A stretch of DNA of 64,000 bases from Sabellastarte sp. h YS-2021. Its lineage: Eukaryota > Annelida > Polychaeta > Sabellida > Sabellidae. Made by a program: the position numbers and the translations under genes. Shown here in pieces: positions 1,384 to 60,899 of this stretch; the first letter of the stretch is position 1; each line of letters starts with the position of its first letter. A model generated the notes under the pieces. The model was not told the DNA's origin. It made no database searches and was given only the letters and a program-made list of their open reading frames with translations. The stretch covers positions 5,831,962 through 5,895,961 of the forward strand of contig OZ024933.1 in assembly GCA_964017235.1 (NCBI GenBank), read 5' to 3'.

Positions 1384-1902
1384 AGTAGTATAGGAGTTAG
1401 TATGGTCACACAAATAGTCACACAATCTACGTGGTCCCCCCCCCCCCCCCCCCCCCCCCCTGGGGGTTGTATAGATTTTTGTGACCAGCAGTCACGGCCC
1501 ATCTGTGTGAGGAGGGGGATATGGGGGAGTTGGGGGGTTTACTTAATGCAGGGTGTTAATTATCTGTGAAAATTAGGTTGAAATGGAATACATTTATTGG
1601 AATGAAGTACATAAAATATTCATAGCATCACCAACAAATAAACAACATTTAAAGCTACATGAAGGCAAATAAAATCATGCCAAACAGCTAAAGTAAAATA
1701 AAACCAGCAAACATCCAAGGACCTTTAAAAACTAGTAAACAACTTTGGAATGTTTAAGCATCTACATATTTATAGCAACAAATAAGGGACATTTAAAACT
1801 ACAAATTATCATAAATATGAAACATCCAAAAAAGTTAAGACATTTAATCCCATACAAATTTGTAAGGACATTTAAAAACGAAATAGTCATGAAAGGTAAA
1901 AT

Positions 1903-2207
1903 GATTATATGGTCCATTAGCCGTTGAATGACTATAGTGTTTGCTACTTTTCATATTTTCAAAAATAAAAGCATCATAAAAATTCCTGGATTTCCATTGG
2001 GGTGACTATAATTCCAGCAATCCGATTGGCGTGACTATAAATCAGCGTTGTATAGATTTTTGGATTATATGGTCCATTAGCCGCTGAATGACTATAGTGT
2101 TTGCTACTTTTCATATTTTCAAAAATAAAAGCATCATAAAAATTCCTGGATTTCCATTGGGGTGACTATAATTCCAGCAATCCGATTGGCGTGACTATAA
2201 ATCAGCG
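1903..2207 (+). repeat. Direct duplication of about 145 bp inside the left TIR
   Basis: Two nearly identical units (1903-2047 and 2063-2207) run from GATTATATGGTCC to ATAAATCAGCG. The same pair is mirrored in the right TIR at about 8050-8354, so the duplication predates, or has been copied between, the arms. Confidence 0.8.
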
Positions 2208-2989
2208 TCAGGGGTCATTTAAACATCTACAAATTAAAGCTAACCAAAAAAGTACACACAAGTAATGGTCAAGCTTTTTTCCCACAATTTTTTTCCTTTA
2301 AAAAGCCAGTTAAAGGGACCCAGTTTCAAATTGTCACAGCAGCCTTTCATTAGACGTTGCATATAATTCAAACCCAATCCCTTTAATTTAAACCAACCCC
2401 TGTACATTATTACCTTTATTTTTAAGTAATTACCTTATTTTAAAGTTTTCTCCATGACTGCTATTCAATAATACTGGAATAAGTAAGAATCCCTCTAATA
2501 TACCAAAGTCCCAAAAATTTAAATATCATATACTAGAGTCCAATGGAAAGGCTATTATTCCCCACTGACAAAGCCATTCGCACAGGTGGCGTCATTCATC
2601 ATTAAAAAGGTCTTGTTAAGGAATTATAATGCATAATTTTCAAATGCTCATAACTTTTTGAGGGATAGTCCGATTTTAAAAATTAAAAAAGCGTCTTAAT
2701 CAGTGAGTCTAGACGAACGTGTTGATATGAAACACGCTCCTGTTAAACCATTAATAAAAATTTCAAAAAAATATTCATTAACTATGTTAAGAGACACATA
2801 ATTTGCATTTTTCAAACGGCCCCAACTCTGCGAGGGATAGTCGGATTTTAAAAATTCGAAAAGCGTCTTAATCAGTGAGTCCCGGCGAACGTTTTGATAT
2901 CAAACTTAACCTTGTATGAGAAATAACGGGAAATTTTAACTATACCAAAGCGTTCATTATGATGTAACACATGTGCCGCATAAAATCGC

Positions 2990-3545
2990 ACGCGTAACAT
3001 ATGACTGTACATGTAACACAATGTGCACCGCACATGTAACACAATGTGCGCACATTTAACGCGTGTGACCCTCACAAACCGCACATGTAACACAATGTGC
3101 ACCGCACATGTAACACAATGTGCGCACGTGTGACCCTCACAAACCGCACATGTAACACAATGTGCACCGCACATGTAACACAATGTGCGCACATGTAACA
3201 CAATGTGCGCACATGTGACCCTCACAAACCGCACATGTAACACAATGTGCGCACATGTAACACAATGTGCGCACATGTGACCCTCACAAACCGCACATGT
3301 AACACAATGTGCGCACATGTAACACAATGTCCGCACATGTAACACAATGTGCGCACATGTGACCCTCACAAACTGCACATGTAACACAATGTGCACCGCA
3401 CATGTAACACAATGTGCGCACATGTGACCCACACAAACCGCACATGTAACACAATGTACACCACACAAACTGCACGTGTAACACAATGTGCGCACATGTA
3501 ACGCGTGTGACCCACACAAACCGCACACGTAACATAATGTGCACA
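2990..3545. repeat. CACATGTAACACAATGTG minisatellite in left TIR
   Basis: This is a tandem array of units such as CACATGTAACACAATGTGCG and CACATGTGACCCTCACAAACC, in a higher-order period of about 65 bp. It leaves Cys-rich open frames on the minus strand in more than one frame, which is a by-product of the repeat and not evidence of a gene. A mirrored array lies at 6713-7275. Confidence 0.85.
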
Positions 3546-3652
3546 TGAGGCTCATCAAACGTAATCCATCTCAGGGTTTCCTGGTCCCCCCTTCCTCGGA
3601 AGGTATTATTTGTTCGCAGACAAGGGTATCGTCTCGGGACCCCAACCGAGAC

Positions 3653-3859
3653 TCATTGTTGCCAGGATTCAATCACTTGACCATCTTTTAGCACTCTCAC
3701 GTTTATTAGGTTGTTACCGAATCTGGCTTGACCGTACTGTAATCCAGCCATCGCACACTCTTTGGCATCCGCGTATTTCTTCTTGCTGGGTAATTTTTCC
3801 AAGTATTCTATCGTATACGTATACTTTGCGATACTAGGGTGATATCTGACATGCTCCAT
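3653..3859 (-). CDS. 68-aa protein encoded in left TIR (copy 1)
   Basis: I do not recognise the family. The 68-residue protein starts MEHVRYHPSIAKYTYTIEYL and ends VIESWQQ; it is charged and soluble-looking, with no signal peptide or membrane segment. The start is set by the shared ATG in both TIR copies, preceded by a poly-A/T-rich leader. It differs from the right-arm copy by one residue (N against D after RFG). It lies downstream of the ATPase gene on the same strand with about 100 bp between them, so it could be co-transcribed with the ATPase or driven from the AT-rich leader. Conservation of the frame between arms supports a real gene, although arm homogenisation would also preserve it. 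Confidence 0.7.
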   Translation of the reverse strand: MEHVRYHPSIAKYTYTIEYLEKLPSKKKYADAKECAMAGLQYGQARFGNNLINVRVLKDGQVIESWQQ

Positions 3860-3964
3860 CTTTTTTTTTTTGATTTTGTTTTTATTTTTTTAATTTTTAA
3901 AATTTTTTTATATTTTTTATTCATTAAAAATTCGGATGTTCGATAAAATCGACGCAGGAACTGT

Positions 3965-5641
3965 CTAATTGTAAGGGGTCTTGTAACTTTCTACAGAGCT
4001 TTCATCCTGTGCATGCGGATCGGATTCCCCATCCGTTTCATAGCTGTCATCCTGTGCATGCTGATCGGATTCCCCATCCGTTTCAGAGCTTTCTTCCTCT
4101 GTATGCGAATCGGATTCATCATCTGTACTATCATCATCGTTTTCTTCTTCGCTGTCAATAAGTTCATCAAACAAAGATGAGTTTCGACGAAGAACTATTT
4201 TCAAAGCCTGAACGAATATGTAATGTTTTTCATTCATTAAGGTCTGGATCTCTTCCATCACTTCCTGGTGTATCGTACTCCTTTTCAAATGATGCACAGT
4301 TGTCAAAATATCGGCATAACTTTTCATAATACCCTTTCTATACTTCCAAAATAAGTCTTCTGTGGCCTTTTGTCTCGATTCTACTTCGGAATAACCCTCT
4401 TTCTCGTAGGATTCAACCTTTTCGGAGTATTGGTCATCGTACTTTCTATACACTCTTTGCACTATGTTATCCCATCCAGATTCATCGGGTTCATCTGTAT
4501 TTTCATCGCACAGTCTTTTCATAGGGGGCTCATCATTTTCGGGACACCCTCTTTTAACGTGTTTCTGTAGGTCCATTGTAGATGCAAAAATAATACCGCA
4601 ATCGATGCAAGACCATTGGCTTTTATCCATTTTATATATATCTTCAACTCTCTTTTTCACACTGTTTCCCTGCTGACTGTCAGATGTTAAGTGATGCATC
4701 TTACGCTTTCCAACCCCTTTTATAATATTAGTCCTAAGCCTGTCTTCATCGGCTGTATCTTGTTTGAGGTCGACTAGTAAATAGCCGTAGGGCTCCTTGG
4801 TAGCATAATGAAATGCATCTAAAAACGACTGAGAATTATTCGGGTACATCTGCCTTGCCAAATGCGCCACCTGTTGCTGGTTGCGCGGATTTTTAAAAAG
4901 TACAATATATTGCGTATTTAAGTTTATGGTTCTGTTTTCTTTGCCATGGTGGTACAAATTTTGTAGCAAGCAAATGACGCTCAAGTTACAATGGTGAGAG
5001 CCTTCGGTATACATTTCGCATACGTCTACATTTTTTGTGGTATCTTTCATAAGGTCATCGTAAATGTACAAGGTAGGCTGACCATCGGGAGTCCGCTGTT
5101 CGATACCCTGCACAAATTCTATATGAGGAACATTTTCTTGTAAATCAGTGTAAGCAGGCTGCCATCTTTTGTAAAACCATAAGATCTTTTCAGGAGGAGG
5201 TGTTATCATTGATTCAGCCTGTTGCAGTAAATGTTTCATCCAGGTTGTTTTTCCGCAAGAGGTCGGTCCTGCCAATAACATTGTAAATGGGTGCCTAAAC
5301 ACAAAGGCATTCTCCTGTTTTGACGATACTTTCAAACGCGGAAGATAAATTTGTCTCAATCCGTGTAATGCTTCGGATGATAAAAACTTTTCTTGCGGTG
5401 TCTCGGGTGTTACAATGGGCACGTGTGTGACATCGGGTGCTATGTGTGCCACATTAGGGTTTATATTTGAGACGCGTGTAACATTTGGCATTGCGTGTGC
5501 AAGATCAGCCGACGATGGATTTACAATTCTTTTCTCATTCCAACCCGACATTGCACCCCTTTTGTGCTGTGTAAACATATGTCTCCTGAATGAATAAGGT
5601 GTAGCAAAACCCTTTGAGCACTTTTCGCATGTTTTATTCAT
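3965..5641 (-). CDS. Packaging-type FtsK/HerA (A32-like) ATPase with zinc fingers
   Basis: The protein has 558 residues. An N-terminal C2H2 finger uses C5, C8, H21 and H26. Residues 51-77 are short Val/His/Pro-rich repeats. The ATPase core shows Walker A AGPTSCGKT (124-132), Walker B LYIYDD (191-196) and a glutamine motif ICLLQN (223-228). A second finger with the same spacing uses C345, C348, H361 and C366. The C-terminus from about 490 is highly acidic and holds two copies of an ETDGESD-QHAQD / ETDGESD-PHAQD unit. The core pattern is that of the DNA-pumping ATPases of Polintons and adintovirus-like elements, which fill capsids; their usual length is about 200-300 aa, so the finger and acidic extensions are additions. 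The frame is intact. It stops 8 bp before the TIR. It is transcribed divergently from the basic-protein gene. Family placement is from motif recognition only. Confidence 0.82.
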   Translation of the reverse strand: MNKTCEKCSKGFATPYSFRRHMFTQHKRGAMSGWNEKRIVNPSSADLAHAMPNVTRVSNINPNVAHIAPDVTHVPIVTPETPQEKFLSSEALHGLRQIYLPRLKVSSKQENAFVFRHPFTMLLAGPTSCGKTTWMKHLLQQAESMITPPPEKILWFYKRWQPAYTDLQENVPHIEFVQGIEQRTPDGQPTLYIYDDLMKDTTKNVDVCEMYTEGSHHCNLSVICLLQNLYHHGKENRTINLNTQYIVLFKNPRNQQQVAHLARQMYPNNSQSFLDAFHYATKEPYGYLLVDLKQDTADEDRLRTNIIKGVGKRKMHHLTSDSQQGNSVKKRVEDIYKMDKSQWSCIDCGIIFASTMDLQKHVKRGCPENDEPPMKRLCDENTDEPDESGWDNIVQRVYRKYDDQYSEKVESYEKEGYSEVESRQKATEDLFWKYRKGIMKSYADILTTVHHLKRSTIHQEVMEEIQTLMNEKHYIFVQALKIVLRRNSSLFDELIDSEEENDDDSTDDESDSHTEEESSETDGESDQHAQDDSYETDGESDPHAQDESSVESYKTPYN

Positions 5642-5695
5642 GGTGACTCTTCAGTGTCTAGGAATAAAACGTCTTCATCTAAATGTAACTGCCAT

Positions 5696-5703
5696 CTTTT
5701 ATA
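5696..5703 (-). promoter_or_regulatory. TATA box for the ATPase gene
   Basis: TATAAAAG on the minus strand lies about 55 bp upstream of the ATPase ATG. Placed opposite a matching box for the divergent gene, it makes the 345-bp intergenic region a likely bidirectional promoter. Confidence 0.5.
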
Positions 5704-5871
5704 AATTTGCCCACTCGATGCATAGGATTTTTAGTTAAATTTATTACCCAACAAACAATGTATTTGACCTAAATACCCGGATTTGTAAAAGGCCTTAGCC
5801 AAACCATAGCCTTAACTTTTGTACCTTAACGAAAGCAAGTGGCTAGGTGGCTCAAAAATATTTGAAAAGTT

Positions 5872-5879
5872 TATAAAAG
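5872..5879 (+). promoter_or_regulatory. TATA box for the basic-protein gene
   Basis: An identical TATAAAAG on the plus strand lies about 108 bp upstream of the ATG at 5987. The intervening sequence has no in-frame ATG that I can see displacing that start. Confidence 0.5.
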
Positions 5880-5986
5880 ACCGTAGAATCCGAGGTGCGT
5901 AGTATAAGATTGAATATTCTCGATCAAAAACTTTAAACCTTACTAACTGAGCCATATAGAGTGTATCTTGTATGTAAGGAAAAAAT

Positions 5987-6280
5987 ATGTGGATACCCAA
6001 AGGTTACCATCCGTTTAAATTAATCAGCCCGGTGCAACAGCAAACCGAAATGGCTGAAATGTTGGTCAAAAGGAAGAGAGCCATGGAAAAACAGGCTCAG
6101 AAAAAAGGAATAGGAAAACCGACGGAAAAAAAGAAGAAAAGTATAAGAAAAATGGTGAAGAAAAAGAAGACCGGTAATAACTATGTAACTAAAAAGTCCG
6201 GGAGTAAAAATACATCAGTCAGGAGAGTTAAAAAGTCTACAAGAGGTCGAAGGACGGTGCGAACGGATATATTTTCGTGA
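5987..6280 (+). CDS. Lys/Arg-rich 97-aa putative core (DNA-binding) protein
   Basis: The 97-residue product has about 31 Lys or Arg residues, including runs such as EKKKK and VKKKK and a C-terminal RRVKKSTRGRR block; the N-terminus MWIPKGYHPF is more ordinary. I do not recognise a family. Small, very basic proteins of this kind condense DNA in the capsids of adenoviruses and related double-stranded DNA viruses, so a protamine-like role is a reasonable inference. The gene is divergent from the ATPase, ends 21 bp before the right TIR and is followed in the TIR by the 68-aa gene on the same strand. Confidence 0.7.
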   Translation: MWIPKGYHPFKLISPVQQQTEMAEMLVKRKRAMEKQAQKKGIGKPTEKKKKSIRKMVKKKKTGNNYVTKKSGSKNTSVRRVKKSTRGRRTVRTDIFS

Positions 6281-6397
6281 TGGAGTAAAATAAGGCGGTT
6301 ACTGCGTCGATTTTATCGAACATCCGAATTTTAAATGAATAAAAAATATAAAAAAATTTTAAAAATTAAAAAAATAAAAACAAAATCAAAAAAAAAG

Positions 6398-6604
6398 ATG
6401 GAGCATGTCAGATATCACCCTAGTATCGCAAAGTATACGTATACGATAGAATACTTGGAAAAATTACCCAGCAAGAAGAAATACGCGGATGCCAAAGAGT
6501 GTGCGATGGCTGGATTACAGTACGGTCAAGCCAGATTCGGTAACGACCTAATAAATGTGAGAGTGCTAAAAGATGGTCAAGTGATTGAATCCTGGCAACA
6601 ATGA
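6398..6604 (+). CDS. 68-aa protein encoded in right TIR (copy 2)
   Basis: Same gene as 3653-3859 in mirror image. An in-frame upstream ATG at 6335 exists only in this arm because of a one-base difference, so the start at 6398 shared by both arms is preferred. It follows the basic-protein gene on the same strand after about 117 bp. The family is not recognised. Confidence 0.7.
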   Translation: MEHVRYHPSIAKYTYTIEYLEKLPSKKKYADAKECAMAGLQYGQARFGNDLINVRVLKDGQVIESWQQ

Positions 6605-6712
6605 GTCTCGGTTGGGGTCCCGAGACGATACCCTTGTCTGCGAACAAATAATACCTTCCGAGGAAGGGGGGACCAGGAAACCCTGAGATGGATTACGTTT
6701 GATGAGCCTCAT

Positions 6713-7275
6713 GTGCGGTGCACATTATGTTACGTGTGCGGTTTGTGTGGGTCACACGCGTTACATGTGCGCACATTGTGTTACACGTGCAGTTTGTGCG
6801 GTGTACATTGTGTTACATGTGCGGTTTGTGTGGGTCACATGTGCGCACATTGTGTTACATGTGCGGTGCACATTGTGTTACATGTGCGGTTTGTGAGGGT
6901 CACATGTGCGCACATTGTGTTACATGTGCGCACATTGTGTTACATGTGCGGTTTGTGAGGGTCACACGTGCGCACATTGTGTTACATGTGCGGTGCACAT
7001 TGTGTTACATGTGCGGTTTGTGAGGGTCACACGTGCGCACATTGTGTTACATGTGCGGTGCACATTGTGTTACATGTGCGGTTTGTGAGGGTCACACGTG
7101 CGCACATTGTGTTACATGTGCGGTGCACATTGTGTTACATGTGTTACATGTGCGGTTTGTGAGGGTCACACGCGTTAAATGTGCGCACATTGTGTTACAT
7201 GTGCGGTGCACATTGTGTTACATGTGCGGTGCACATTGTGTTACATGTACAGTCATATGTTACGCGTGCGATTTT
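6713..7275. repeat. Minisatellite in right TIR
   Basis: Mirror of 2990-3545. Units such as CACATTGTGTTACATGTGCG recur with a higher-order period of about 62-65 bp, and small copy differences from the left arm are visible (for example an extra ACATGTGTT near 7140). Confidence 0.85.
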
Positions 7276-8857
7276 ATGCGGCACATGTGTCACATCATAA
7301 TGAACGCTTTGGTATAGTTAAAATTTCCCGTTATTTCTCATACAAGGTTAAGTTTGATATCAAAACGTTCGCCGGGACTCACTGATTAAGACGCTTTTCG
7401 AATTTTTAAAATCCGACTATCCCTCGCAGAGTTGGGGCCGTTTGAAAAATGCAAATTATGTGTCTCTTAACATAGTTAATGAATATTTTTTTGAAATTTT
7501 TATTAATGGTTTAACAGGAGCGTGTTTCATATCAACACGTTCGTCTAGACTCACTGATTAAGACGCTTTTTTAATTTTTAAAATCGGACTATCCCTCAAA
7601 AAGTTATGAGCATTTGAAAATTATGCATTATAATTCCTTAACAAGACCTTTTTAATGATGAATGACGCCACCTGTGCGAATGGCTTTGTCAGTGGGGAAT
7701 AATAGCCTTTCCATTGGACTCTAGTATATGATATTTAAATTTTTGGGACTTTGGTATATTAGAGGGATTCTTACTTATTCCAGTATTATTGAATAGCAGT
7801 CATGGAGAAAACTTTAAAATAAGGTAATTACTTAAAAATAAAGGTAATAATGTACAGGGGTTGGTTTAAATTAAAGGGATTGGGTTTGAATTATATGCAA
7901 CGTCTAATGAAAGGCTGCTGTGACAATTTGAAACTGGGTCCCTTTAACTGGCTTTTTAAAGGAAAAAAATTGTGGGAAAAAAGCTTGACCATTACTTGTG
8001 TGTACTTTTTTGGTTAGCTTTAATTTGTAGATGTTTAAATGACCCCTGACGCCGATTTATAGTCACACCAATCGGATTGCTGGAATTATAGTCACCCCAA
8101 TGGAAATCCAGGAATTTTTATGATGCTTTTATTTTTGAAAATATGAAAAGTAGCAAACACTATAGTCATTCAGCGGCTAATGGACCATATAATCCAAAAA
8201 TCTATACAACGCTGATTTATAGTCACGCCAATCGGATTGCTGGAATTATAGTCACCCCAATGGAAATCCAGGAATTTTTATGATGCTTTTATTTTTGAAA
8301 ATATGAAAAGTAGCAAACACTATAGTCATTCAACGGCTAATGGACCATATAATCATTTTACCTTTCATGACTATTTCGTTTTTAAATGTCCTTACAAATT
8401 TGTACGGGATTAAATGTCTTAACTTTTTTGGATGTTTCATATTTATGATAATTTGTAGTTTTAAATGTCCCTTATTTGTTGCTATAAATATGTAGATGCT
8501 TAAACATTCCAAAGTTGTTTACTAGTTTTTAAAGGTCCTTGGATGTTTGCTGGTTTTATTTTACTTTAGCTGTTTGGCATGATTTTATTTGCCTTCATGT
8601 AGCTTTAAATGTTGTTTATTTGTTGGTGATGCTATGAATATTTTATGTACTTCCTTCCAATAAATGTATTCCATTTCAACCTAATTTTCACAGATAATTA
8701 ACACCCTGCATTAAGTAAACCCCCCAACTCCCCCATATCCCCCTCCTCACACAGATGGGCCGTGACTGCTGGTCACAAAAATCTATACAACCCCCCAGGG
8801 GGGGGACCACGTAGATTGTGTGACTATTTGTGTGACCATACTAACTCCTATACTACT

Positions 8858-8863
8858 TCTAGC
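8858..8863. repeat. Right target-site duplication TCTAGC
   Basis: Identical to 1378-1383 and directly abutting the right terminus. Confidence 0.85.
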
Positions 8864-10992: not shown

Positions 10993-11029
10993 TGTTCATC
11001 ATTTGAAGGTGAACAATGTCTAAGTTTTA

Positions 11030-12400
11030 AAAGCCAAGAGGAATGGAGAAGTGGTAAACCATATTATTGAAAATCCCCCCTAGTCCCTGAAGGCAGGCGT
11101 CCAAATGACAGTCTGCAGCTTTGTGGTCATATAATCCAACCGGGGCCACGGTGGCAGAGTGGTAACACTCTCGCCTCCCACCTCTGAGGCTGGGGTGCGA
11201 TCCCCGGCACGGCCTCAAGTGGGAAAGCTGGTAGTTGTTTGCCGTTGGTTGCCAGTTTACAGTACAGAACCCTAACGAACTGTATGTGCTGGTTTTCTCT
11301 GCCCTTCCAACTACCCGTCGTGATATGACCTGTACAGTGTTGAAAGCGACGTAAAACCCCAAATAAATAAATATAATGCAACCCCATTGAAACTGAGTAG
11401 GAAATTTGCAAACCACCTTAAATCTCTGTGAAAGCTTGGATTCAAAGTTATGTGGTTGCTATTATGTGCATTTCTAAGAATTTCCAGCATGTGGTTTAAA
11501 AAGAACCCAGCTGGCTTCACACATTTGTGAATGTATAAAGGCTGACCTAAAAGTGACTGCAATTGTCTTTTTGTACATTGCTTTTTTTCGTTTTTCCACT
11601 CCCAGATCATTTTTTACTTTTTTTCTATTTTGTCTTGATGGATTGACATAGATCCAGCAATGTATCTATTTCAACACCTAAACAGGTGACCTTGGTGCCT
11701 GGCCTAACCAACTTTTTCTTGCTTATTGTGAGACCTAGTCGAATAAGGAGGTCATAAAGAAAGTGAAAAGATCCTTTTGCGTTGAACCTAGCACCAAAAC
11801 CAATGTAATTATCAATATAGGCCACCAATTTGTGGCCATTTTTTCTCATATTGAAGCATATGGTGTCACTGCAACGCTGAAAAATTTGGGAACCATGTCT
11901 ACTCCCAAAAGCTACACATGTATCTACATAAATATTATGCCAAGACAAACCTAGGGGATCATAATCCAATGGATCCACTTTCCTGTGTCTAAACGCTCTT
12001 AAGATATCTATCTTATAGAGGGGACAACCCCCCACTTAGTGGTCAGTTGTTGGAAGACTAAGGTGAAAATGAGTGTCTAAGTATGAGGTTTTATAGATGC
12101 CCTCATTCACAGATTTGCCCAAAGGCCAACTAAGGTCCACAAGTACTCTGCAATTCTCTGGGTTTTCTCTTGTAAGAAATGGAGAAATGTGACCACCAGA
12201 GTATGGGTGTTCTTTGAATGGACTTCAATGTCTTTTGGATAATCAATGGCAGATCTATGATTTGCGCCTTCCCAACTTAAGGGAGAAAATACAGAAGATC
12301 TAATAGTTGGATGTCCCAGTAGTCAACCAATACATTTTTCTATTCATCTAAATCAATTGTGAATTTACCTTTATTCTAGCTCCCAAAATATTTGATTTGC
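11030..12400 (-). pseudogene. DIRS-like reverse transcriptase / RNase H
   Basis: Readable blocks include VLVDLSWPLGKSVNEGI, DILRAFRHRKVDPLDYDPLG, AYIDNYIGFGARF (where an active enzyme has Y/F-x-DD) and KKCTKRQLQ-type RNase H sequence, followed beyond the SINE by HLDACLQGLGGIFNN. The substitution YIDN for YIDD in the polymerase active-site box and a stop after TTDH indicate loss of function. Confidence 0.75.
11130..11382 (+). mobile_element. tRNA-derived SINE (family 1, copy 1) with 11-bp target duplication
   Basis: The body at 11141-11371 starts GGGGCCACGGTGGCAGAGTGG (box A-like TGGCAGAGTGG; box B-like GGTGCGATCCC at about 11193) and ends in an (AAAT)n tail. TATAATCCAAC (11130-11140) and TATAATGCAAC (11372-11382) flank it as the target duplication with one mismatch. 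It splits the DIRS RNase H reading frame exactly between VALY and DHKAADCHLD. A second copy is at 50204-50442. Confidence 0.88.
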
Positions 12401-12439
12401 CATGATTCTTGACCAAGTTATGGACTTTTATAGGACAAT

Positions 12440-12846
12440 AATTAGTGACTTCATTAACCTCACCTCACCAATTTCAATGTCACCCACTATCTATATGCTG
12501 ATGACACCCAAATATATCTAGCACTGGACCATAGGAACTTTGATTCCAGTTTTGCTGAGCTTACTGAGTGTCTCACATGTGTCCAAAACTGGATGGCTGG
12601 TGTGAAACTTAAACTCAACCCCGAGAAAACTGAATTTATTATCATTGGTGATAGACAAGCCAGAGATTCCCTCATCAACAAATTCCCGACTCAACTTCTT
12701 GAAAATTCTACCTCCCCTACCGATACAGACAAGAACCTAGGTGTTACTTTTGACTCCGGAAACCCCTTTACCAGCTACATAACCAATATGTGTCACGCCT
12801 GTTACTACCACCTTAAGGACCTAAGCAGCGACTTATTTGTTTTTTA
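12440..12846 (+). pseudogene. LINE reverse transcriptase fragment with YADD box
   Basis: The plus strand reads FNVTHYLYADDTQIYLALD, then WMAGVKLKLNPEKTEFIII and KNLGVTFDS, the active-site and following blocks of a Jockey/CR1-type reverse transcriptase. It ends abruptly at 12846. It lies opposite to, and inside, the DIRS-like element, so it is a later insertion or fragment. Confidence 0.82.
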
Positions 12847-12849
12847 GCT

Positions 12850-14275
12850 CTTTTTGGGCCACTTGGGCAATCTTTTTCACCATGGTTTAGTTACTTGCCA
12901 CTTTCCAAACAGTGAGCATATATCTGCCTATGTAACTTTCCATTTGTATCATGATCTTTGCTGAAACTACATACACCACTTCAAATAATTAACAGAACCA
13001 TGGTCGCTCATTGCCAGAATCATAATGTTTGCCAAACATTGTAGCATTCTGAACATATTTTTGAGCATGGCGTCTGTGTATTCTGTCGATTCTATCAGTA
13101 TTAGTTTAAGAAACAGCCCCCCCCCCCCTTTCCATCTCACATAGCAAGACTGCAGGTGAGGCTTTAGCTCCCTTAAGCTTAAGTGACAGTGGCCTAGTTA
13201 CATTAACACAACCTAGTGGGGTTTATAATTTTTATTAGATTTTTTTCTATGTTATTTATACTACTCTTTATACATAACGCACAATAACTTTACATTGCCA
13301 CCTAGTGTGGCTAATATAGCACAACAATGAATGTTAACACTACAGTCACTTTATGGTGACCTTATTTACATGAAGACATTTACATTTAATCAGCACGTGA
13401 AAAACGTGCCCTGAACATTACTAAATCACATGTCACTTAAGGTGACCATAACTTGAAGAAGTTTAAAAATTGAAATTATGGGTATGATATGATACTGACT
13501 TCAGAATGAAGGTTACGAGTTTTTCAGATGAAATTTTAGGAAGTTAAGATCAACTTATTGTGAAAAACATTCTGTCTGATTCAGTTCAAAAGTTACCCTG
13601 CCAGCTTAAGTCAGTAGCGCCTTCTATTAGATCAGACAGATAATTTAGCATGTTTCCCGAATTTTTTTACATTTTTCATCCAAAATGTTTCTGGCAAAAG
13701 CTTGGACCCATTGTGTCTAAGCAAGCTGATCATAAGACACCCTTTGTATACTACTACCGCAAAGGATAGTATCCTGGGGCCAAGCAATTATTTTTACAAA
13801 ACATTCAACACTTCCACCACCCTTTGATTTATGTTTTAACTTTTCGTCACCTTGTGAAAAACTACATTCTTTAAGTTCATGCATTCTAGAATCAACTTGT
13901 TGCTGTATGTCCCTATTTGACTTTAGATGGTTCAAACTGGGAACCAGAAATTCAACAAAAGATGAGTCACTATCTTGAATTGGTGTTGATATTTGAGGCA
14001 AAGGAAGGCTACTTATCTTTCCCGCTCTTGTAGACTGTAGTTTCACTTCAGCAAACCCATCTTCCACGTCATCCAATCTTGTGTTGACTCTCTTCAGTTG
14101 TTCAAGAATCGGTGACTGGACTTCTGATGCCCCATTTGCTTTCAATTGACTCTTTGAAGGTGTCATTTGCTGTAATTGTGAGGCTAAGACCTTCATCATC
14201 TTCTGTAAATTTGCATTTTTTGCCAGTGGGTGGCAAGTGCTTTCCAAGGCATTTGCTGCATTTTACTTTACTGCT
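12850..14275 (-). pseudogene. DIRS-like gag protein
   Basis: The intact N-terminal piece (13717-14247, 176 aa) has a coiled-coil-like stretch and a WPQDTILCGSSIQRVSYDQL block. The C-terminal piece, about 12850-13100, reads RIHRRHAQKYVQNATMFGKH and then WFC and KDHDTNGKLH-type Cys/His residues across a frame break, resembling a zinc-knuckle region. Between them is a poly-C-containing insertion. Assignment as gag rests on remembered similarity and on position upstream of the DIRS reverse transcriptase. Confidence 0.6.
13130..13640. other. Insertion of unknown type within DIRS gag
   Basis: Non-coding segment separating the two gag blocks. It contains partly inverted motifs (TTAAGCTTAAGTGACAGTGG near 13170; GTCACTTAAGGTGACC near 13430), suggesting a small DNA element, but boundaries are unclear. 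Confidence 0.35.
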
Positions 14276-14589
14276 GGGCATTCTTAAGCTTCTAGTATTT
14301 GAAAAGTCAATGTCTTATTTTATCAGAAGATAGAAAAGCAGAACAGTTGTGCTGAATATCTGACTTTATGCTTGATTTAACTTGAGGGAATTGTTATAAA
14401 ATTACATCAAAAAATCAAGCTTCAGGTCGTCAAGTCTGCGCCCAAAAATGTCTACAGCAACTCTTCAAAGACTACAAACATTAGTGAATCACAGCTTCAT
14501 GGAAGTCCCCAGCCATCTTTATAGCATAAATTCTCCTTTATTAAACCCCCCCCCCCCCCCCCCCCTGTTTTAAGGTCATGACAGACTGT

Positions 14590-16390
14590 TTAAACCCCAA
14601 CAGCTATTTGATTTGAACGTTAGTTATTTTCTGGATTGTGGAAGTTAATAAGTTTATACCCGTTGGGTGGAGGATGACCACTTTGGTTAGTTTGGGACAG
14701 TCTTGTGTAGACAGAACTTTTTTATTTTCAGTATTTTTCTTGGGTGGATAAGTAATTAACGCCTTGGTGCGTAGGTCTTTATGGTTGGGTAATCTTCTAT
14801 ACCCTATAAGTGGTTTGTCCTTGAAGATTTTTTTCAGCTAATCAATATGCTGGATAATGTTCCAATTATTTCTGCTTAAAGGTTTAATAGGTGGATCGCT
14901 CGGGTTGAACTGGGTCACCATGACTGGTGTGTCAAGTGTGGGTTTAGGTGTATTTTCTAACAGATCTGACTGTTTGAACTGATTTGTTCTATTGAAGTGT
15001 ATTTTGAGACTCTCTCTAGGGTACCCTCTTTTGAGATAGTAGCCAGTCAGTTTGAAGGCATTTGTCTTGAAATCTTTATCTAATGTACAGATTCTGCGAA
15101 ACCTAAGGTACTGTCCATATGGTCCTTTTTCCAATACAGTGCTGGGATGTGCAGAACTATATTCAAGGTACACCTGGGTCTCTGTAGGCTTATTATATAG
15201 AGTAGTAATTAATTCCCTACTCTCATTGAACTTGACTGTGGTGTCAAGGAAATTTATGTCAGTGTAGCTAGATTCATGGGTTAATTCTATTGATTCATTT
15301 AGTGAATTGAGGTACTCAATAAAATGGTTGAGTATGTCTTCACCATGTGTCCATTCCATGAAAGTGTCATCAATGAAGCGTTTTCAAACTAATGATTTCA
15401 AATAATAACTCTCAAGTGCCTTAGTGCTGACTTTGTGCTAATGAGGTGCCCACGGCAGTCCCTCCTATATGAAGGTAGTATTCACCATTGAATTCAAAGT
15501 TCATACTGTGAAGAACAAGTTTCAATAAATCAAAAATAAATTTAGTAATGGGTGTTTTTGTTGGGTCACTCCTAATCCTTTTTGTTTTTGTTGTCTGCCA
15601 TTGCCAATATTCCTTCATTATTCGGGATAATGGTGTATAAGCTGGATACATCCAGGGTGCATACTATTACCCCCTCTGGTATTGGTCCTAGGTCTCTAAT
15701 ATTCTTAATAAAGTCCTGAGTGTCTCTAAGATTTAGTTTGGGGAACATAATTTTTGATACGTTCATCAACAAGTTTGCTGATCTTGCTTGTGGGGTGGTT
15801 GACAGAGCTACAAATAGGTCTGCCTGGGACATTTTGTTTATGTATTTTTGGGAGCATGTAACACCTTGCTTCTGTGCAAGATTCAGGTGAGAGATGATCC
15901 AAATTATTTTCAGTAATTAAACCTTTTTGGTGCATCTGAGTTAATGTCTTATGTGTCTTTTTGCCAGTTTCACTGGTTTGGTCATGATCAAGTTTGGTAT
16001 AGAATTTTTGATCATTAAGTTGTCTATAGCCTTCTCTGAGGTAGTCAGTTGTGCTCATTACTACAACTGCTGACCCTTTGTTGGACCTTATGATCACTAT
16101 TCTAGGATTTTGGGATAATTCCTTAAGACCTATCTACTGTTCTTTTGTGAGGTTGGGTTGTCCTCTATTTTTGATCCTGCTTTTGAGCAGCTATCTTTAA
16201 AAGCTCTTTAAAAAACTTCTAGTGATTGCTGAATCCTAGGTAATCTCCAATTACTTTTGTCCACAAATTATTTGTGAATATCTTTATATGGGTTTTCACT
16301 TTCTTCTAAGTTAATAGCTATAAGGTATACTCTTGCCATTTCATCTTCATTCAGATCTTTTACTATCATACTAGATGTATATTATCATAC
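14590..16390 (-). mobile_element. Penelope-like element reverse transcriptase, truncated
   Basis: Minus-strand blocks in order include SNKGSAVVVMSTTDYLREGY, CYMLPKIHKQNVPGRPI, LDVSSLYTIIPNNEG, GGTAVGTSLAQ, RFIDDTFMEWTHGEDI, NFLDTTVKFN and KPLIGYRRLPNHKDL. These are the KGSAVVVM, LPKIHK, DV-x-SLYTNIP and FIDD signatures of Penelope-like reverse transcriptases. Several frameshifts are present. The sequence stops in the linker, and the C-terminal GIY-YIG endonuclease expected next is not seen; a poly-C tract lies at about 14546-14565. Confidence 0.87.
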
Positions 16391-16399
16391 TAGAAGTAA

Positions 16400-18090
16400 T
16401 ATTTCAAACTCAGTCTGCCATGGAATTCTTTGAAATCCATCCAAATCTGAGCCTTACTAGGTGGTCCTGGGGTTGGGTAAAATGTCAGGCCTTTCCAAGG
16501 GCACTGACTTGTGCTTTACTTGGGGGTTCGTCAGATAAGTTAATAATTGTATGACCAATTAGACTGTCCATGTTTTGCTCTGCTGGTGAAATCCATTAGA
16601 TGCTATTTTTACAGATCAGATCTCCAGATAGTTGTAGCCTTCCATCATAAGAGATGTCAAATGTGCAGTTATTCCTGAGGTATAAAAACCGAATCCGGTG
16701 AGATCCGATAATAGTAGCCAAACAACACAGACTAAACTGAAAAATAAATTTTATTGTTTTATTGACACAATAAGCATCATGTGTTGAATTTTTAACAAGT
16801 TTACTCAGTCCTTTAATGAGAAACTGGAGTTGTTTATTGGTCTGTCTGTAGCAACTGGGGTTATTGGGACAGCTTCTCCTTGGCTTCCCTCCAGATTTGA
16901 ATCTTGGTTTGGATTCAGGTCAAGGAATCCTTGAGTTCTTTCACTGACTGGCACTGGTGATATTTTCCATCTCTGCATAAGTTGATTGTATGTCTGCTTT
17001 GATGACACTGTATTTAGAGCTCTTCAACCAGATGTAAGGTCAATTCCCTTACAGTTTTGTACCACTGTCTGATTCCACATTCATACTTGATGTTACTCCT
17101 CTGTTATCACATTGAAGTCATAATAGTAAGATAACAACCAATATTATTTTACTGTTTATTCATTTCCTGATAATACACACATCAAATAGTATAATCACTA
17201 TATTATCAACTACAAGCACATAATGAACAATCAGTGATTTAACTTAAACAAAAATTAGTTATTGTGAATTATCCCATCAGAATCTCTAAATCTGAGATCA
17301 AGGATTTTATAATTGGTCACAATTGGACTATTTTTGTGAACATTTGACAATCTCTTGTTATTATTCATAAAAATATTCATCTGATCCGACATCAGATCCA
17401 CTTGATCAGAATTAATGTTATAAATATGAAATTTAATTTTGGTCACAATTATATCATTTTTGTTAAATAATTTTGAATTTTTTGATAATAATCATTCAAA
17501 TTACTATCTGATCCACCAGATCTGAATGGGTGCTAATTCAGGACCTTGGGGAATGATCCAACCCCAATCATAGCCTCTGATGAGAACTGTCAAGCGCAAA
17601 TCGAAATATTCAAACTATTTATTTTGAATATAAGGCAGAGTAATTTAAAGTCTGGCCTACTTTTCACTGACCCAAGTTACTGTTTCTCGTAATTTAAACA
17701 CATGTGGTAATTTTACAATATGAATGTGCTTCAGCAATTGTAATTTATTAACTGCACTAATTTTCAATAATGATCAACAATGATTGTGATAAATAAGAAT
17801 ATGTGCTTGTAGCCAATCTATGTGCTTGCATTAAGAAATTTAATACTTGATGGGTATCAAATGCTAACTCCATACTCACAATTTATTTTGTTTTCTTTCA
17901 TATTTATTTGTGATCTCAAAATATATATTGCGTTGACTTGTGTTTTCTTATAATATGGTTTGGTTTAATTTAAGTGCTATGGAAAATTTCTGATCACACC
18001 CCCATCTTTATATGGTTCTTGAAATGAGAATCTGATCGCTGGTAAATGCAATAACCTGATCTGTTTGGCTTGAAAGGACAAGCAGTGCAT
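16400..18090. other. Non-coding stretch upstream of Penelope-like element
   Basis: No gene is recognised. 16380-17000 may include decayed 5' sequence of the Penelope-like element; 17260-17520 carries a few short repeats of a TCTGATCC motif. Otherwise AT-rich and featureless. Confidence 0.4.
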
Positions 18091-18092
18091 AT

Positions 18093-19303
18093 GTTATGAC
18101 CCAGATGTGAAATTGTTCATTTCGCGAAATGGACAAGCAAATTGTCCATTTCATGAAATGGACAAATCTGTATATATTTTGCTATCCATTTCATGAAATG
18201 GACAAAGTCATGTATGAAAGTTAAATTTTTGTTCATGGCCAATCTTTTGATTTAGGTTATCCACTTTATTCCCCTATAATAATGATATGTATATGTAATA
18301 TGTTACACTGAGTTAGTTAATAGTTAAATAGTTATAAATATTTGAAATAAATTGGAAATAAAAGTGTCAATTATGTAAAGCATACTTTTAAAAGGAATAA
18401 CTATTTAAATAATTATCACACTTATACTTTACAAAATGTCTTGGTACCTGGTATATTATTTTTTAACTTTTGCTTGAAAGAAATATGATAGAACTTTGTC
18501 TCTTTTGTGCACTAATCCTGTTTAAAAGGCTTTCCTTTGATGGTTAGATCTGAGAAATTGTAGTCTACCCTTTGAAGATAAGTTCTAAAAGTTATCAAAA
18601 GTAACTGTCAATTTAAAAAGGTTGAAGCCATCCTAAAGGTTACAAAAAGAAATGGGCTAATTACAATTAAATCCATCTTACTAGTGGTGAGGCTTTCTTT
18701 TGGTGAGATCTGAGGATTATAGTGAACCTTTTGAGGATTAAATCTAAGGGTTAATTCACATAACTGTCAATTTAAAAGGTTGAAGCCATACCTTTGATGA
18801 TATGTTGAAGCATACCTTTGATTATATGTTCTGAGGATTATTGTAAATAACTGTCCATTCAACACTTGAAAGCCATTTTTAGTCTTTTAAATGTTAAGCT
18901 TTTTACAAAAAGTCCAATTAACAAAGTGCAATTATGTCCAGTCATTTCACTATAAATATACCTGAACACCACAAATTATTATCACTTTTTTGGAAAACTA
19001 CTGGCAGTGCTGTAAATAGATTTTGCATTATTTTAGTACAACCTTTGATCCATTGATGTATTCCAATACTATGTTTCAATAAAAATGTGAAAAAAAAAGT
19101 TTTTTCACTGTGAATGAGAGTAAAAATTTCGTACATTTAGTTATCCATTTCATGAAATGGACAGTGGATTTTTTATCCATTTCACGAAATGGATAAATAT
19201 TTTGTCCATTTCACGAAATGGATAGTTGGGTTGTCTATTTCATGAAATGGACAATTTGCTTGTCCATTTCACGAAATAAACAATTTCACACCTGGGTCGT
19301 AAC
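18093..19303. mobile_element. Non-autonomous TIR element with palindrome clusters
   Basis: GTTATGACCCAGATGTGAAA at 18093 is mirrored at 19303 (GTTACGACCCAGGTGTGAAA read inward). Beside each TIR are repeated 22-bp palindromes with core TCCATTTCATGAAATGGA: three on the left (18114-18135, 18143-18164, 18183-18204) and five on the right (19142-19163, 19174-19195, 19203-19224, 19232-19253, 19261-19282). The interior (18500-18900) has about three diverged direct repeats around AACTGTCAATTTAAAAGGTT. There is no coding capacity. A clean target duplication was not resolved. Confidence 0.75.
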
Positions 19304-19609
19304 ACACATACGCACAAGATTATATGTTTGTGTTAAACAAGGCATACATGTTTGTCAAGAATATGTGCTCTCTTCTCATGTGCATTATTTCATGTATGAC
19401 ATGTATCTTCTTCAAGAATACATGCATTTGTAATTTGTCAAAATTAGGTCAGGTAGAAAAGCATTTATTGAGATGTCAAATTTAGTCGATGATAATTTAA
19501 CATTTGGCAAATTGCAGTTTGAAGATAATTTGAAATGTGCTGTCATGTAACATTTGCCAAATTGGTATTGATCACTTTTTTGATAAATTGTTGGCCCAAG
19601 GCAGTTGTA

Positions 19610-20605
19610 TCTGTTGTTGCATGGTACTCTCACGGGTGAATTGTAATGTTTTAGAGTCTGTGCTTCTTGTCAGCCTTGTGGTCTCAGTTGCTGGCTAGCC
19701 ACATCTATGTCTTCAAGGGTTATAACTTGCCTCCAGTGTCTGGGTAATAGTCTATGTTGTTCATCTTCTTCATCTGGCAATCCCTGATTTACACCCGGAT
19801 ATCTGGTTTACATAAGGTTGTGGAAGTTGCAATAGACTATAACTGCAGCAGTTACATTCCGAGGGTCCTGTAGTATAGATGTTAAGTCCTAATGCAATTT
19901 TTGACCACACCCCTGGCACGAGACAGCTTGTAGTTGAAGATCCTTGGGTCATTTGGTAAATTCCTGGAGCTGAAATGATTCATCAAACGTGTTCTTAAGA
20001 CAAAGTCTTCATCTATACAGTGAGGAAGTAATGCATGTTTCTTTCATCTCCAGGTAGAGGCTTGTCTTCTAGAAGGCCAATTGAGCCATCCAAAATGGCC
20101 ATCAGTAACTCACTTTCAGCAAAAGTGTGTGCATGGAAACAGGAACCATCTGTTCCCACATCAACCCTATTTGTAATTTGCATCTACCAAGGCAAGGACG
20201 GTGATTAAACAGAAACTTTGTAGTAAAAATGGGTAAAAATTGTAGTAAACAGAGCCTCTAATTTTGACATGCTTTCAATTGATGGGCCCAGAGTATGATG
20301 AAAATTCCAGCTGCTTAAGAATTCGAAACATATCTGGGTCCAATAAAACTAAGTTTCTGTAACCTGCAAGATCTTTATTCTGGAGTTTTGTCATCATCTT
20401 GTTATAGTATCCATAGTCCAGCCTTTGGACAATGCATGGTTTTACCCAGAGCCTTTTCTATCTGGATGAAATACTTCATCATCGAAGAGTTTAAGGCAAA
20501 GGCTTTATCTCCTATGAGAAAGTAAGGTATGTCACTTTCACCTCATGGTAGAGACTTGTTTTCTGAAAAAGATATTGAGCCATCCCAAATGGCCATTGTT
20601 TTATT
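19610..20605 (-). pseudogene. PIF/Harbinger transposase fragments
   Basis: Minus-strand pieces include NKDLAGYRNLVLLDPDMF (N-terminal domain), LALVDANYK, a DVGTDGS-like block, MAILDGSIGLLEDKPLPGDE, LRTRLMNHFSSRNL, DPRIFNYKLSRARGVVKN and LKHYNSPVRVP. These follow the order of HARBI1-like DDE nucleases, with a large internal deletion. A second, partly duplicated block (20405-20605: MAIWDGSI, IPYFLIGDKAFAL) precedes it, so two copies or a local duplication are joined here. Multiple stops are present. Confidence 0.78.
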
Positions 20606-20766
20606 ATTTGTCTGTACACCAAGCTATTTATACTGAGAGATACAAGCTATATGGTAGGCACATTGTTTATTGTAAAGAAACAACTAATATCAGTACATGT
20701 GGTTATGCCAGATGCCAGAAAAATGTCATTACTTTTAAACGTCATTGATGTAGCGATATCACAACA
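20600..20766 (-). repeat. Partial Gypsy LTR and polypurine tract
   Basis: On the minus strand, AAAGAGGGGCA (about 20766-20777) precedes TGTTGTGATATCGC, a typical polypurine tract to LTR transition. Within are TATAAATAG and AATAAAACA. The sequence runs straight into PIF/Harbinger DNA at about 20600, so it is probably truncated. Confidence 0.55.
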
Positions 20767-20949
20767 TGCCCCTCTTTAAAAGAAAAGAAGATTAGATAAT
20801 TTCTTGGAATAAAATAAATGATTTGCTTGGCAACAGTACCTAAGCTAAATGGACCAAGTGCAAACTTTATCCTCAAATTAATAGATGTCTACTGTTAAAT
20901 AAAGAAATGGTGGCTGCACAATATCCTGGATCATGAGCAGAACTTTATT

Positions 20950-22160
20950 AGATAGAGGTCCGAAGATTTGACTCTGGCTTTAGGAGACACTGTCACTGTG
21001 ATCGTACTTAGAAAGGTATACAAAGTCGGGGCTTCTGTGTTGTTTCTCCTGTCAACCAGATCTTGTCTTTATGGGTGAGTGGCTCAGGATTGGAATTGGA
21101 GGCAAACTTACAGACTCATCCATTACTGGCTTTGGTAAACGGTCTGCTTTCCTGTTCATTGGTGTTTCATGTAGCATTTCCTGTGCAGATGAAATGGGGT
21201 CAGAATCCAGGACCTTGGGTATAGATGCAGTGAATACTTGTCCCTGTTCCACCTCCTGTGAGATTATTGGAGTTGTGGGATTGTGTTGAACTATAGTGAG
21301 TGATTGTTGATAGCTTGGAAATGAGAAACATGGTTTCAGATCATGGACATTGCGTCTGATGTGTCGATTATTATTATAGCTGTGATGACCCAATATGAGT
21401 CTGGGTACTGACTCTTTGACTTAATGAAGCCTGGTTTCCACTCAGCAACAGAGCCATCTTCCATCATCCTTTCTGCTGATGTGGAGTGTATTCATTTCGA
21501 TTCCCTGGTTCTGAGAGATGAGCTGTATCTCATGTCATTACAGCTTTTGTTTCTGCACATCATCAAGTGTTGCCAGTTGATACATTATGCTAAGGCGAGA
21601 ATTTTTTCGCTTGTTAAAGAACAGCTCTACAAGATATGGCAGATCCTGGGTTATGACGTGTCATGATATGCAACCAGAGCAGTGGTAATTTCAACCTTTG
21701 AGCTGCATTTCTGGAGTATCTGTGCAAGGGTTTGAGTAGCCCTGTCGGCACAGCCATTCCATTTATGGTAGTAGGGAGAGGATGTTCAATTTCAATAGAC
21801 TGACAGAAACTACGGAACTGTTGTGATCTGAAGCATGATCTATCGTTTGCAATGATTGATTTAGTGAGACCAAACCTTCTGAAATTGCAATTGAGTGGTA
21901 ATATAACAGTTTGTGCCTGAAGACCGTCCATTAATAATCCAGAAATATTCTATTGTGACTATCATGTGTCCACCCTTGTGCTCCATGAAGTCAATGCCCC
22001 ACATCTGCATTGGTTTTGTGACTGAGATCTGTTACTCAGGTAGTCTGTGTTTCTTCTTCCCATAAATTTGACATCCTTTACACTGCAAAATCAGATCAAT
22101 GATATCATTTGCAGTCTATGCCAAAATACTGTGCGTCAGGCACATTGGAGTGTTTAGTTT
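20950..22160 (-). pseudogene. Gypsy integrase and pol C-terminus
   Basis: Minus-strand blocks QMWGIDFMEHKGGHMIVT, SIIANDRSCFRSQQFRSF and TTINGMA correspond to the DDE core of retroviral-type integrase, with the central Asp motif decayed. The downstream block 21052-21393 (YNNNRHIRRNVHDLK, ending PIKTRSG) matches the usual pol tail. Frame breaks separate the blocks. Confidence 0.72.
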
Positions 22161-22710
22161 AGTAATTGATGACCATCATCAAGAACCAGTACGGCTGTAC
22201 AGCTTCCATCAAGTGGTGTGTGTGTGAGGGCCATCTATCGTTGATGTACTCAATAATCTGTGATAAAGTGGGGTCTTCTTTTGTTTCTGCTTGAAGTGAC
22301 TGTGGGTGAGTGGGCTTGATAGACATTACCTGTGCAATATGTACATTTAGATCTGGTATTGTTTGACTTGACCCTAGCTTACCCAACCTTGAGTGAGTGT
22401 CAGCTAAAAGGACAATCTTAGTGCCAACATATTTTACATTTAAATCAAACACCCTGAACCCCAGGAGCACTCTGTGGAGGTGAGATGGCACAAGACTAAT
22501 TGGCTCCTTGAATATAGATTCAAGTGGCTTGTGGTCACAATTGATAGTATGGTCAAACACATAAGTGTGAAGCTTTTCACAAACAAAGAGGACACCCAAA
22601 AGCTCTCTCCCATTATTAGAGTATACTCTGCTTCTGTATGTGTGAACGATTTGCTGAGAAATTTTACAGGTTTTCCCCCCTGAACGAGCAGAGCTCCAAT
22701 CCATTTGAGT
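22159..22710 (-). pseudogene. Gypsy RNase H
   Basis: Open 181-codon frame with NNGRELLGVLFVCEKLHTYVF, CDHKPLESIFKEPISL and FDLNVKYVGTKIVLLADTHS, the E-x-LGV, DHKPL and N-x-ADTLSR landmarks of Gypsy RNase H. ADTHS replaces the usual ADTLS. Confidence 0.8.
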
Positions 22711-22799
22711 GATGCATCGGTCTTAATAGCTGCTGGTTTGTTTCGATCAAAATGTATTAGTTGGACTGAACTAACAATAGCCTTCTTGATGTCTTCAAA

Positions 22800-23510
22800 T
22801 TCAAGTTACATGTTGCTTATCCACTCAAAATGGCTGTCTTTCTTTAAGAGGTGGCGCATTACATATGTTTTCCTGGAAAGATTAGCAATGAAAGCAAACA
22901 TGAAATTTCCTGTGGTAAGAAAGCTTTGGAGTTCCTGTTTGCTACTGGGTGAGGCTAAGTTAACTACTGCCTTTATTTTCTTTGGACAAGGAGATACATG
23001 TGAAATGTTCCTAGCAAAGGACTCTATTTTGCATTTTTTGATTTGGCATTTGCTAGGGTTGAACTTAATTCCCACTTTAGTAGTTTTCTGGATAGTTTCA
23101 AGGAGGTGTATGTTGTGTTTCTCCTCAGTGGATACCTGGATTTTAACATCATCTGCACAAGAGAATGTACCTGGAATCCCAACCAAAGCTGCGCCCATTT
23201 GTGCAAAGAATATTTCTCAAGAGGCAGAATCAAAATGACAGTCTGCAGAAACAGCACTTTTAAATGGAGTATTGAATGCTGTAAAAGTTAGCTTTCCTCA
23301 CTCAACTTTTTGTCCAGTATCCAGTCTTCGCATCCAATATTGAAAAAATGGCCATTTGTGAAAGTATGTTTTGCATCCTCTCACGATGCTGTGTAGTGGA
23401 TATTTCTGATGAGGCATTTATTTAAATTATTTTGGTCAGGACAAATTCTGATGTCACTGTTTTTCTTTGAAACAATTACAATGTTGTAAACCCAATTGGG
23501 GTTGACTCTC
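22800..23510 (-). pseudogene. Gypsy reverse transcriptase (palm to thumb)
   Basis: VNPNWVYNIVIVSKKNSDIR and IPGTFSCADDVKIQV (the F-x-DD box, here CADD) are visible, followed by KCQIKKCKIESFARNISHVS and SPSSKQELQSFL. Frame breaks occur near 23200-23400. The start of the domain is displaced to 24145-24240 by the LINE insertion. Confidence 0.78.
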
Positions 23511-59635: not shown

Positions 59636-59869
59636 GGACGGTGTTGTAAATGGAACCGGCAAAAAAAACCCAGACATTTGCGGACAGTTATCAGACTTTA
59701 AATATAAACTAACTTGTTGCCAATCACATTCTTTTTGCAGGAGGGTTGCCACAAAAGAAAGACCTAAATCCCAATATTGTTAAACAAAAGTCATGTGTGA
59801 AAAATGTTTCCTGTGTCGATTACTTGAGTATTTTTTCAAAATTGTCACAAATACCCAATTGTTGTTCCA

Positions 59870-60700: not shown

Positions 60701-60899
60701 CAAAACAAGCACTCCCTGGCAGACACCTGATGTCCCTGATAGGGTTGTTTGACACAACTACAGAAAGACAAACCTAGGTCGCCTCCACATGAGAGCAATA
60801 CAGTTGCACCAGAAAAACAATTGGAGGGTACCAGAAACACTAGAGATGGTGATCCCCATCCCCAGGTCACGCCATTGTCACTTACACTGGTACGTACAT

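Follow-up and report, generated by a model that had tools for sequence, protein, structure and literature searches.

A 6-bp target site duplication (TSD) is a feature of the Polinton (Maverick) family. Among other elements, transpovirons are capsid-less and linear, have terminal repeats and ride with a helper in giant-virus hosts, with another gene content. Many phage-inducible chromosomal islands (PICIs) encode a small terminase and possess a packaging site of their own, and miniature inverted-repeat transposable elements (MITEs), like other non-autonomous transposons, usually keep no conserved gene. PICIs are described as small satellites using helper particles (PMC6431247), and PMC6723459 describes polymerase and integrase as common to all Polintons and capsid genes as encoded by virophages. 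Here, we analysed a stretch of 64,000 nucleotides from the annelid Sabellastarte sp. h YS-2021 (assembly GCA_964017235.1, contig OZ024933.1, positions 5,831,962 to 5,895,961; hereafter the window), which contains a 7474-bp element at positions 1384-8857. This element is a recently mobile, multi-copy, non-autonomous element of the Polinton type, made of two parts of different origin. We give a probability of about one half to the view that it is a satellite of Polintons which brings its own motor and, probably, a packaging signal of its own.

Like Polintons, the element has the 6-bp TSD, terminal inverted repeats (TIRs), a packaging-type ATPase and ends common to larger members of the family in the same genome. 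Unlike them, it has no polymerase or integrase frame recognizable by eye, no capsid or protease is seen in it, each TIR makes up about 35% of its length, and its ATPase differs from that of the Polintons sharing its ends. The flanking duplication is a perfect TCTAGC (1378-1383 and 8858-8863) and the termini read AGTAGTATAGGAG.../...CTCCTATACTACT. Self-comparison and arm alignment placed the left TIR at 1384-3973 (plus strand) and the right TIR at 6286-8857 (minus strand), on either side of a unique centre of 2.3 kb. Each TIR is about 2.6 kb long, with an ungapped stretch of 1598 nt at 100% identity and 95-99% in the remaining aligned stretches; the outer parts of the two arms aligned with 1589/1596 identical positions and 18 gap columns. 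A C run near the ends differs between these otherwise almost identical arms, being about 25 long in the left one (~1436-1460) and about 8 in the right one (8797-8812).

The gene at 3965-5641 (minus strand, in a 561-codon open frame) encodes an ATPase, hereafter ATPase1, which counts 558 amino acids (aa) from its first Met and has an acidic tail as well as C2H2 zinc fingers at the N terminus and in the centre (near residues 7-29 and 347-366). It matched Pox_A32 in Pfam (1.5e-6). In its predicted model, the predicted local distance difference test (pLDDT) is mostly 70-95 for the core and 69 for the whole; its closest fold in the PDB is that of STIV2 B204, a genome-packaging NTPase, and its matches in viral models were adenovirus IVa2, A32-like packaging ATPases and Sputnik V3. 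By predicted fold and Walker motifs, the protein is of the A32/FtsK-HerA packaging type, as proposed in the original prediction, which had been made from the letters of the window alone. The scan against Pfam and PHROGs covered three frames, those of ATPase1, of K and of a small open reading frame (ORF) of 68 aa. K (5987-6280, plus strand) is a lysine/arginine-rich protein of 97 aa in a 100-codon frame, and might, from its composition, condense DNA. The 68-aa ORF is present in both arms (3653-3859, minus strand, and 6398-6604, plus strand) and has a homologue in a larger relative, element C (56% over 57 aa). Neither K nor the 68-aa ORF gave a curated match in Pfam or PHROGs. The original prediction had also described the element as devoid of polymerase, integrase, protease and capsid genes. 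This agrees with what we saw among its frames of at least 60 aa: by eye, none resembles a polymerase, a retrovirus-type integrase or a capsid, no listed PF03175 (polymerase) or capsid-candidate place lies inside the element, and no integrase appeared in the Pfam/PHROGs scan of the three frames. No protease was recognized by eye among the same frames, no model-based protease search having been made.

Genome searches covered the 1.79-Gb assembly, and the ATPase1 search scored the best 78 of 2142 candidates, which makes its counts lower bounds. Among these 78 places, 39 are at least 97% identical (fragments included), 15 lie at 84-96%, 8 at 78-83% and 16 at 62-77%; residues 1-561 aligned without a stop at 26 of them. 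Twenty places were examined with about 4 kb of flank each (loci are designated by L numbers). The compact architecture, called lineage A, was found in 15 of the 20 and therefore, with the window element, in 16 copies, one of which (L019) has a rearranged left arm. A perfect 6-bp TSD, different each time, borders 13 of the 14 copies with readable ends (L013 and L021 are left out of this count), and L011 has none. In the left arm of L020, two start-like ends were seen (1187 and 1588), only the outer of which pairs with the right TSD TTTGTT. Of the 16 copies, 15 have an open ATPase1 frame; L021 lacks 63 nt in frame and L023 is split once. The K frame has 94-107 codons in 14 copies and 73 in L021 and L023, and both arms of the window element, of L009-L014, which have window-type arms, and of L022 contain a whole 68-aa ORF, as does one arm of L019. 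Thus, exact 6-bp TSDs and Polinton-type ends like those first noticed in the window recur at different sites, and the many near-identical ATPase1 places (at least 39 at 97% or above) and distinct TSDs rule out a one-off insertion and a single-copy element. They also bear on the idea that the inverted repeats misled the assembly. Very long palindromes do occur in it, but many sites carry a copy, with perfect TSDs that differ from one another, which makes such an artefact scarcely credible.

The outer part of the TIRs is shared with larger Polintons. A search with the repeat scored the best 40 of 412 candidates, and the outer 593 bp (1470-2062, plus strand; right-arm match at 8195-8787, minus strand) were found at 99-100% identity at places where independent searches gave, at similar distances, a PolB match and ATPase2, an ATPase of a different family. 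Outside lineage A, 14 repeat places were tabulated. ATPase2 lies near 10 of them, and the other 4 are short elements without ATPase2, PolB or capsid candidate. The larger Polintons with the same ends that had been anticipated are therefore present in the assembly. PolB is near 5 of the 10 larger loci and a capsid candidate near 7, with all three at C5, C4 and C19 and ATPase2 alone at C3:175029508. The end motif AGTAGTATAGGAG is present in 7 of 8 end pieces from the end-sharing loci and was not found in the eighth (L044). From the PolB, ATPase2 and capsid-candidate places we infer that these loci are full-length and autonomous, no integrase search having been made. At one of them (C1:22984247), the likeness to the repeat ends near window position 2734 and is followed by a 222-codon frame with a membrane-type stretch; the 2 kb examined there contain no minisatellite array, 68-aa ORF, K or ATPase1.

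ATPase2 of the end-sharing locus L046 is identical to ATPase1 at 72/191 core residues. No listed PolB (61) or ATPase2 (81) place was found within 12 kb of any of the best 78 ATPase1 places, while 46 of the 61 PolB places have ATPase2, and 45 a capsid candidate, within that distance. This applies to the places listed, from which some rows were left out, and L027, with polymerase motifs seen by eye, is an exception absent from the PolB list. The element is therefore a chimera, its ends being those of larger Polintons that have another ATPase. A simple internal deletion of an end-sharing Polinton is ruled out because the ATPase families differ (72/191, with ATPase2 near all 10 loci), and the part of the original prediction that took the ATPase for a remnant of the parent Polinton found no support. 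As judged from sequence comparison, the outer TIRs are common to the element and larger Polintons of the same genome, and the core, comprising the other ATPase type and K, falls in a different ATPase lineage.

The same core was also found between other ends. L015-L018 terminate in AGTAGTAAGGGGG, and their outer repeats match the window element only in pieces, at about 73-94%. At the DNA level, their ATPase1 and K genes are 99.5-99.6% and 99.0-99.3% identical to those of the window element. In L015, L016 and L018, the core is 98-100% identical in nearly all 150-bp bins, and identity is 89-91% in two full bins outside each side. The outer repeat of L015 (L015:1410-1905) is 99% identical at C18:45857693-45858189, and the opposite arm there gives a 184-bp match at 95% (C18:45879907-45880094); the interval between these arms contains a 1130-codon frame that matches PolB, and an ATPase2 interrupted by two stops. 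Because the core of L015-L018 is near-identical to that of the window element and the outer repeat matches the C18 Polinton, one core is found between the ends of two Polinton families.

We compared the rates of nonsynonymous and synonymous change (dN/dS) between copies. The older compact copies lie at dS 0.09-0.19 from the window element. The dN/dS of ATPase1 against the window element is 0.26 for L020, 0.23 for L022 and 0.20 for L023, and 0.21-0.22 among these three. In the core, it is 0.145-0.27 for the same comparisons with the window element, and the core has the lowest value of four ATPase1 parts in 4 of 5 comparisons (the exception being that with L020). Variable ATPase1 sites by codon position 1/2/3 number 49/46/113 in the 16 copies and 3/4/14 in the 12 closest. 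K is less clear, with dN/dS of 0.16-0.41 in older pairs and 0.77 for L019 (four changes), and variable sites of 7/13/18. ATPase1 is under purifying selection among the older compact copies, and since its dN/dS is low while K is less clear and the 68-aa ORF is often broken, it is ATPase1, and not every gene, that is preserved. This strains the explanation by which the element would be a common non-autonomous derivative of a Polinton, with a passenger ATPase that has stayed open simply because the copies are young. That many copies are at least 99% identical, and that relatives with the same repeats exist without ATPase1, speak for it; yet the ATPase is not that of the end-sharing elements, and the older copies are open or split once (L023) at dN/dS of 0.20-0.26, so we consider a passenger gene unlikely. 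It has also to be asked whether ATPase1 is a weapon or a regulator, blocking helper packaging or aiding replication of long inverted repeats, rather than a motor for its own DNA. The helper already has an ATPase, and fused zinc fingers and an acidic tail are compatible with a DNA-bound regulator. However, the Walker motifs, like many residues of the core, show little or no variation among 24 relatives and the core is the most constrained part in most comparisons, and such a role is, in our opinion, quite improbable.

Each arm of the element contains a minisatellite array, defined by self-comparison and motif count, at 2990-3545 (plus strand) and 6718-7270 (minus strand). The palindromic motif RTGTNACAY is present 36 times in the element versus 8 times across the remaining 56.5 kb of the window; as the motifs are tandem repeats, these counts are not independent events. 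Clusters of the motif are found in the repeats of all 15 other lineage A copies (in one arm only for L019) and of both copies of lineage B, and are also retained in the ATPase-less L035, L036 and L037. In larger relatives, the motif lies inside the linker of ATPase1, with 42 motifs in lineage C (one elsewhere in the locus) and 16 and 16 in lineage D (two and one elsewhere). There, the minisatellite is translated as a Thr-His-Val-rich linker (L026:3440-4270, L027:5450-5834), and in the compact copies it stands outside the ATPase1 gene, in the repeats. Only 0-1 motif per piece was counted in an 18.6-kb palindrome with ATPase2 (two pieces) and in the end-sharing Polintons (10 pieces, about 4.7 kb, which is little sequence). 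Phage pac sites often lie in small-terminase genes. By analogy, the array may be a site recognised by ATPase1, making it a candidate packaging array.

The ATPase1 tree groups four lineages as (D,(C,(B,A))), with a midpoint root and support of 100/100 for all four, 97/93 for C+B+A and 89/86 for B+A; ATPase2 falls far outside on a very long branch. Lineage B (L024, L025), with about 80% ATPase1 identity, is likewise compact and has long repeats. Lineage C was examined in L026 with L029, an element of about 10.6 kb with a perfect TSD GGTGAG and ends ACTACTATAGGG, which differ from those of lineage A. It carries an ATPase about 75% identical to that of A, a gene resembling TATA-binding protein (TBP), the homologue of the 68-aa ORF and a 434-codon frame (L026:982-2250), whose position and size make it a capsid candidate; we saw neither a polymerase nor an integrase frame in this element. 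A single-sequence model of the capsid candidate was useless (mean pLDDT 29.5). The TBP-like gene (L026:3-359, minus strand; PF00352, 4.7e-11) thus lies within a Polinton-type element with a perfect 6-bp TSD. In lineage D (L027), an integrase (rve, 1.9e-10) is accompanied by what we take, from motifs seen by eye, to be a polymerase, for which Pfam gave no match.

Lineage C raises the possibility of a split Polinton system, in which the ATPase would serve the related capsid element, the compact and capsid elements complementing each other while larger Polintons replicate and integrate them. Consistent with this, eight of the best 78 ATPase1 places, all in the 65-77% class, lie within 12 kb of a capsid candidate, L026 with L029 combines a perfect TSD with the lack of a visible PolB or integrase frame, and the 68-aa ORF is common to A and C. 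However, the ends of C are unlike those of A and their ATPases are only about 75% identical. Moreover, genes next to a third PolB group (1118-codon frames), which has its own ATPase2-type gene, match the capsid candidate of C at 98-100% identity. We therefore regard a split system as rather unlikely.

We return to the Polinton satellite, to which we assigned even odds. Larger Polintons would supply polymerase, integrase and capsid in trans, acting on the shared ends, so that the element is copied and inserted with 6-bp TSDs. ATPase1, guided by its zinc fingers, would recognise the co-travelling arrays and load the element's DNA, rather than that of the helper, into helper capsids, and the element would swap its ends to match the available helpers. 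Purifying selection, end swapping and the co-travelling array make the satellite role advanced in the original prediction more likely, packaging itself being a conjecture, and forms with the same repeats exist without the ATPase.

Several observations weigh against this satellite. L035 and L036 have no ATPase; the former keeps K and the 68-aa ORF, and the latter two inverted copies of K. In both, the flanking repeats agree at about 100% with window 1470-2990. L037 is a palindrome devoid of genes, and its repeat pattern is found again at C8:96269013-96275209, hence at two sites. The ATPase loss in L035 and L036 may postdate insertion; because the gene-less form recurs, its insertion seems to have occurred without ATPase in cis, which suggests that none is needed there, and L035-L037 together argue against a strict need for the ATPase. 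In L015-L018, L020, L021 and L023, neither arm has an intact 68-aa ORF, and in L019 the ORF of one arm is disrupted. Regarding selection, L021 has a dN/dS of 0.34 (23 changes), and the nearest compact copies are too alike to test selection alone, the other computed close pairs having at most 12 changes. Repeats common to gene and TIR may reflect ordinary exchange, and the exchange of ends may have run in either direction. Finally, the end-sharing Polinton sequence examined amounts to about 4.7 kb, and the capsid candidate L026:982-2250 had no match in Pfam and no sequence match in the PDB.

A more specific version, which we hold tentatively, is that the element is an animal counterpart of PICIs, that is, a capsid-less Polinton satellite with a motor and a matching array that moved from the motor gene into the TIRs, its outer ends following different helper families. 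The likeness is one of analogy, as a small satellite that would use a helper for packaging; PICIs are bacterial and their proteins are unrelated. Virophages are helper-dependent as well and have a packaging ATPase of the same broad fold (the Sputnik V3 match), whereas no capsid gene is seen in the compact element. As for MITEs and other non-autonomous DNA transposons, the ends are recognised by autonomous elements, but here one gene of the element, ATPase1, is under purifying selection. To our knowledge, particle production by animal Polintons is an open question. If the satellite is real, its selected motor would point indirectly to present or recent production of Polinton particles in an animal; such production could be tested by looking for compact-element DNA inside particles, and the motor and array would be a natural pair for finding the Polinton packaging signal. 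A Polinton satellite keeping only a packaging ATPase does not appear in the accessible portions of the open-licence Polinton and satellite literature, including PMC4028283, PMC6431247, PMC6723459, PMC11071308, PMC11071296, PMC10294476 and PMC8905726.

Outside this genome, integrase and an ATPase of this family are predicted as a single protein in Pinctada (P0046). Another member of the family (P0106) bears the label of a bacterium, a gill symbiont of Solemya velum, and host contamination of that assembly is likely. As regards adintoviruses and virophages, three viral-contig scans yielded no relatives.

The inverted repeats of L036 and L037 seem to have grown inward, over K in the former and over the whole interior in the latter, which suggests snap-back copying or conversion. 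Two loci were rejected as ordinary full-length Polintons: C7:105999647-106020470, since L033 and L034 mirror each other, and C1:111709214-111731043, dropped on mirrored ATPase2 matches alone. L033 and L034 adjoin (G000:C7:106000700-106019300; 18.6 kb), each with a short ATPase2 frame, and contain retroelement-like frames. Mirrored ATPase2 matches were seen at C1:111715655/111724223 and C11:89496008/89504376. Finally, elsewhere in the window, positions 11027-23238 and 59713-61349 contain frames which by eye, no search having been made, resemble retroelement remains.

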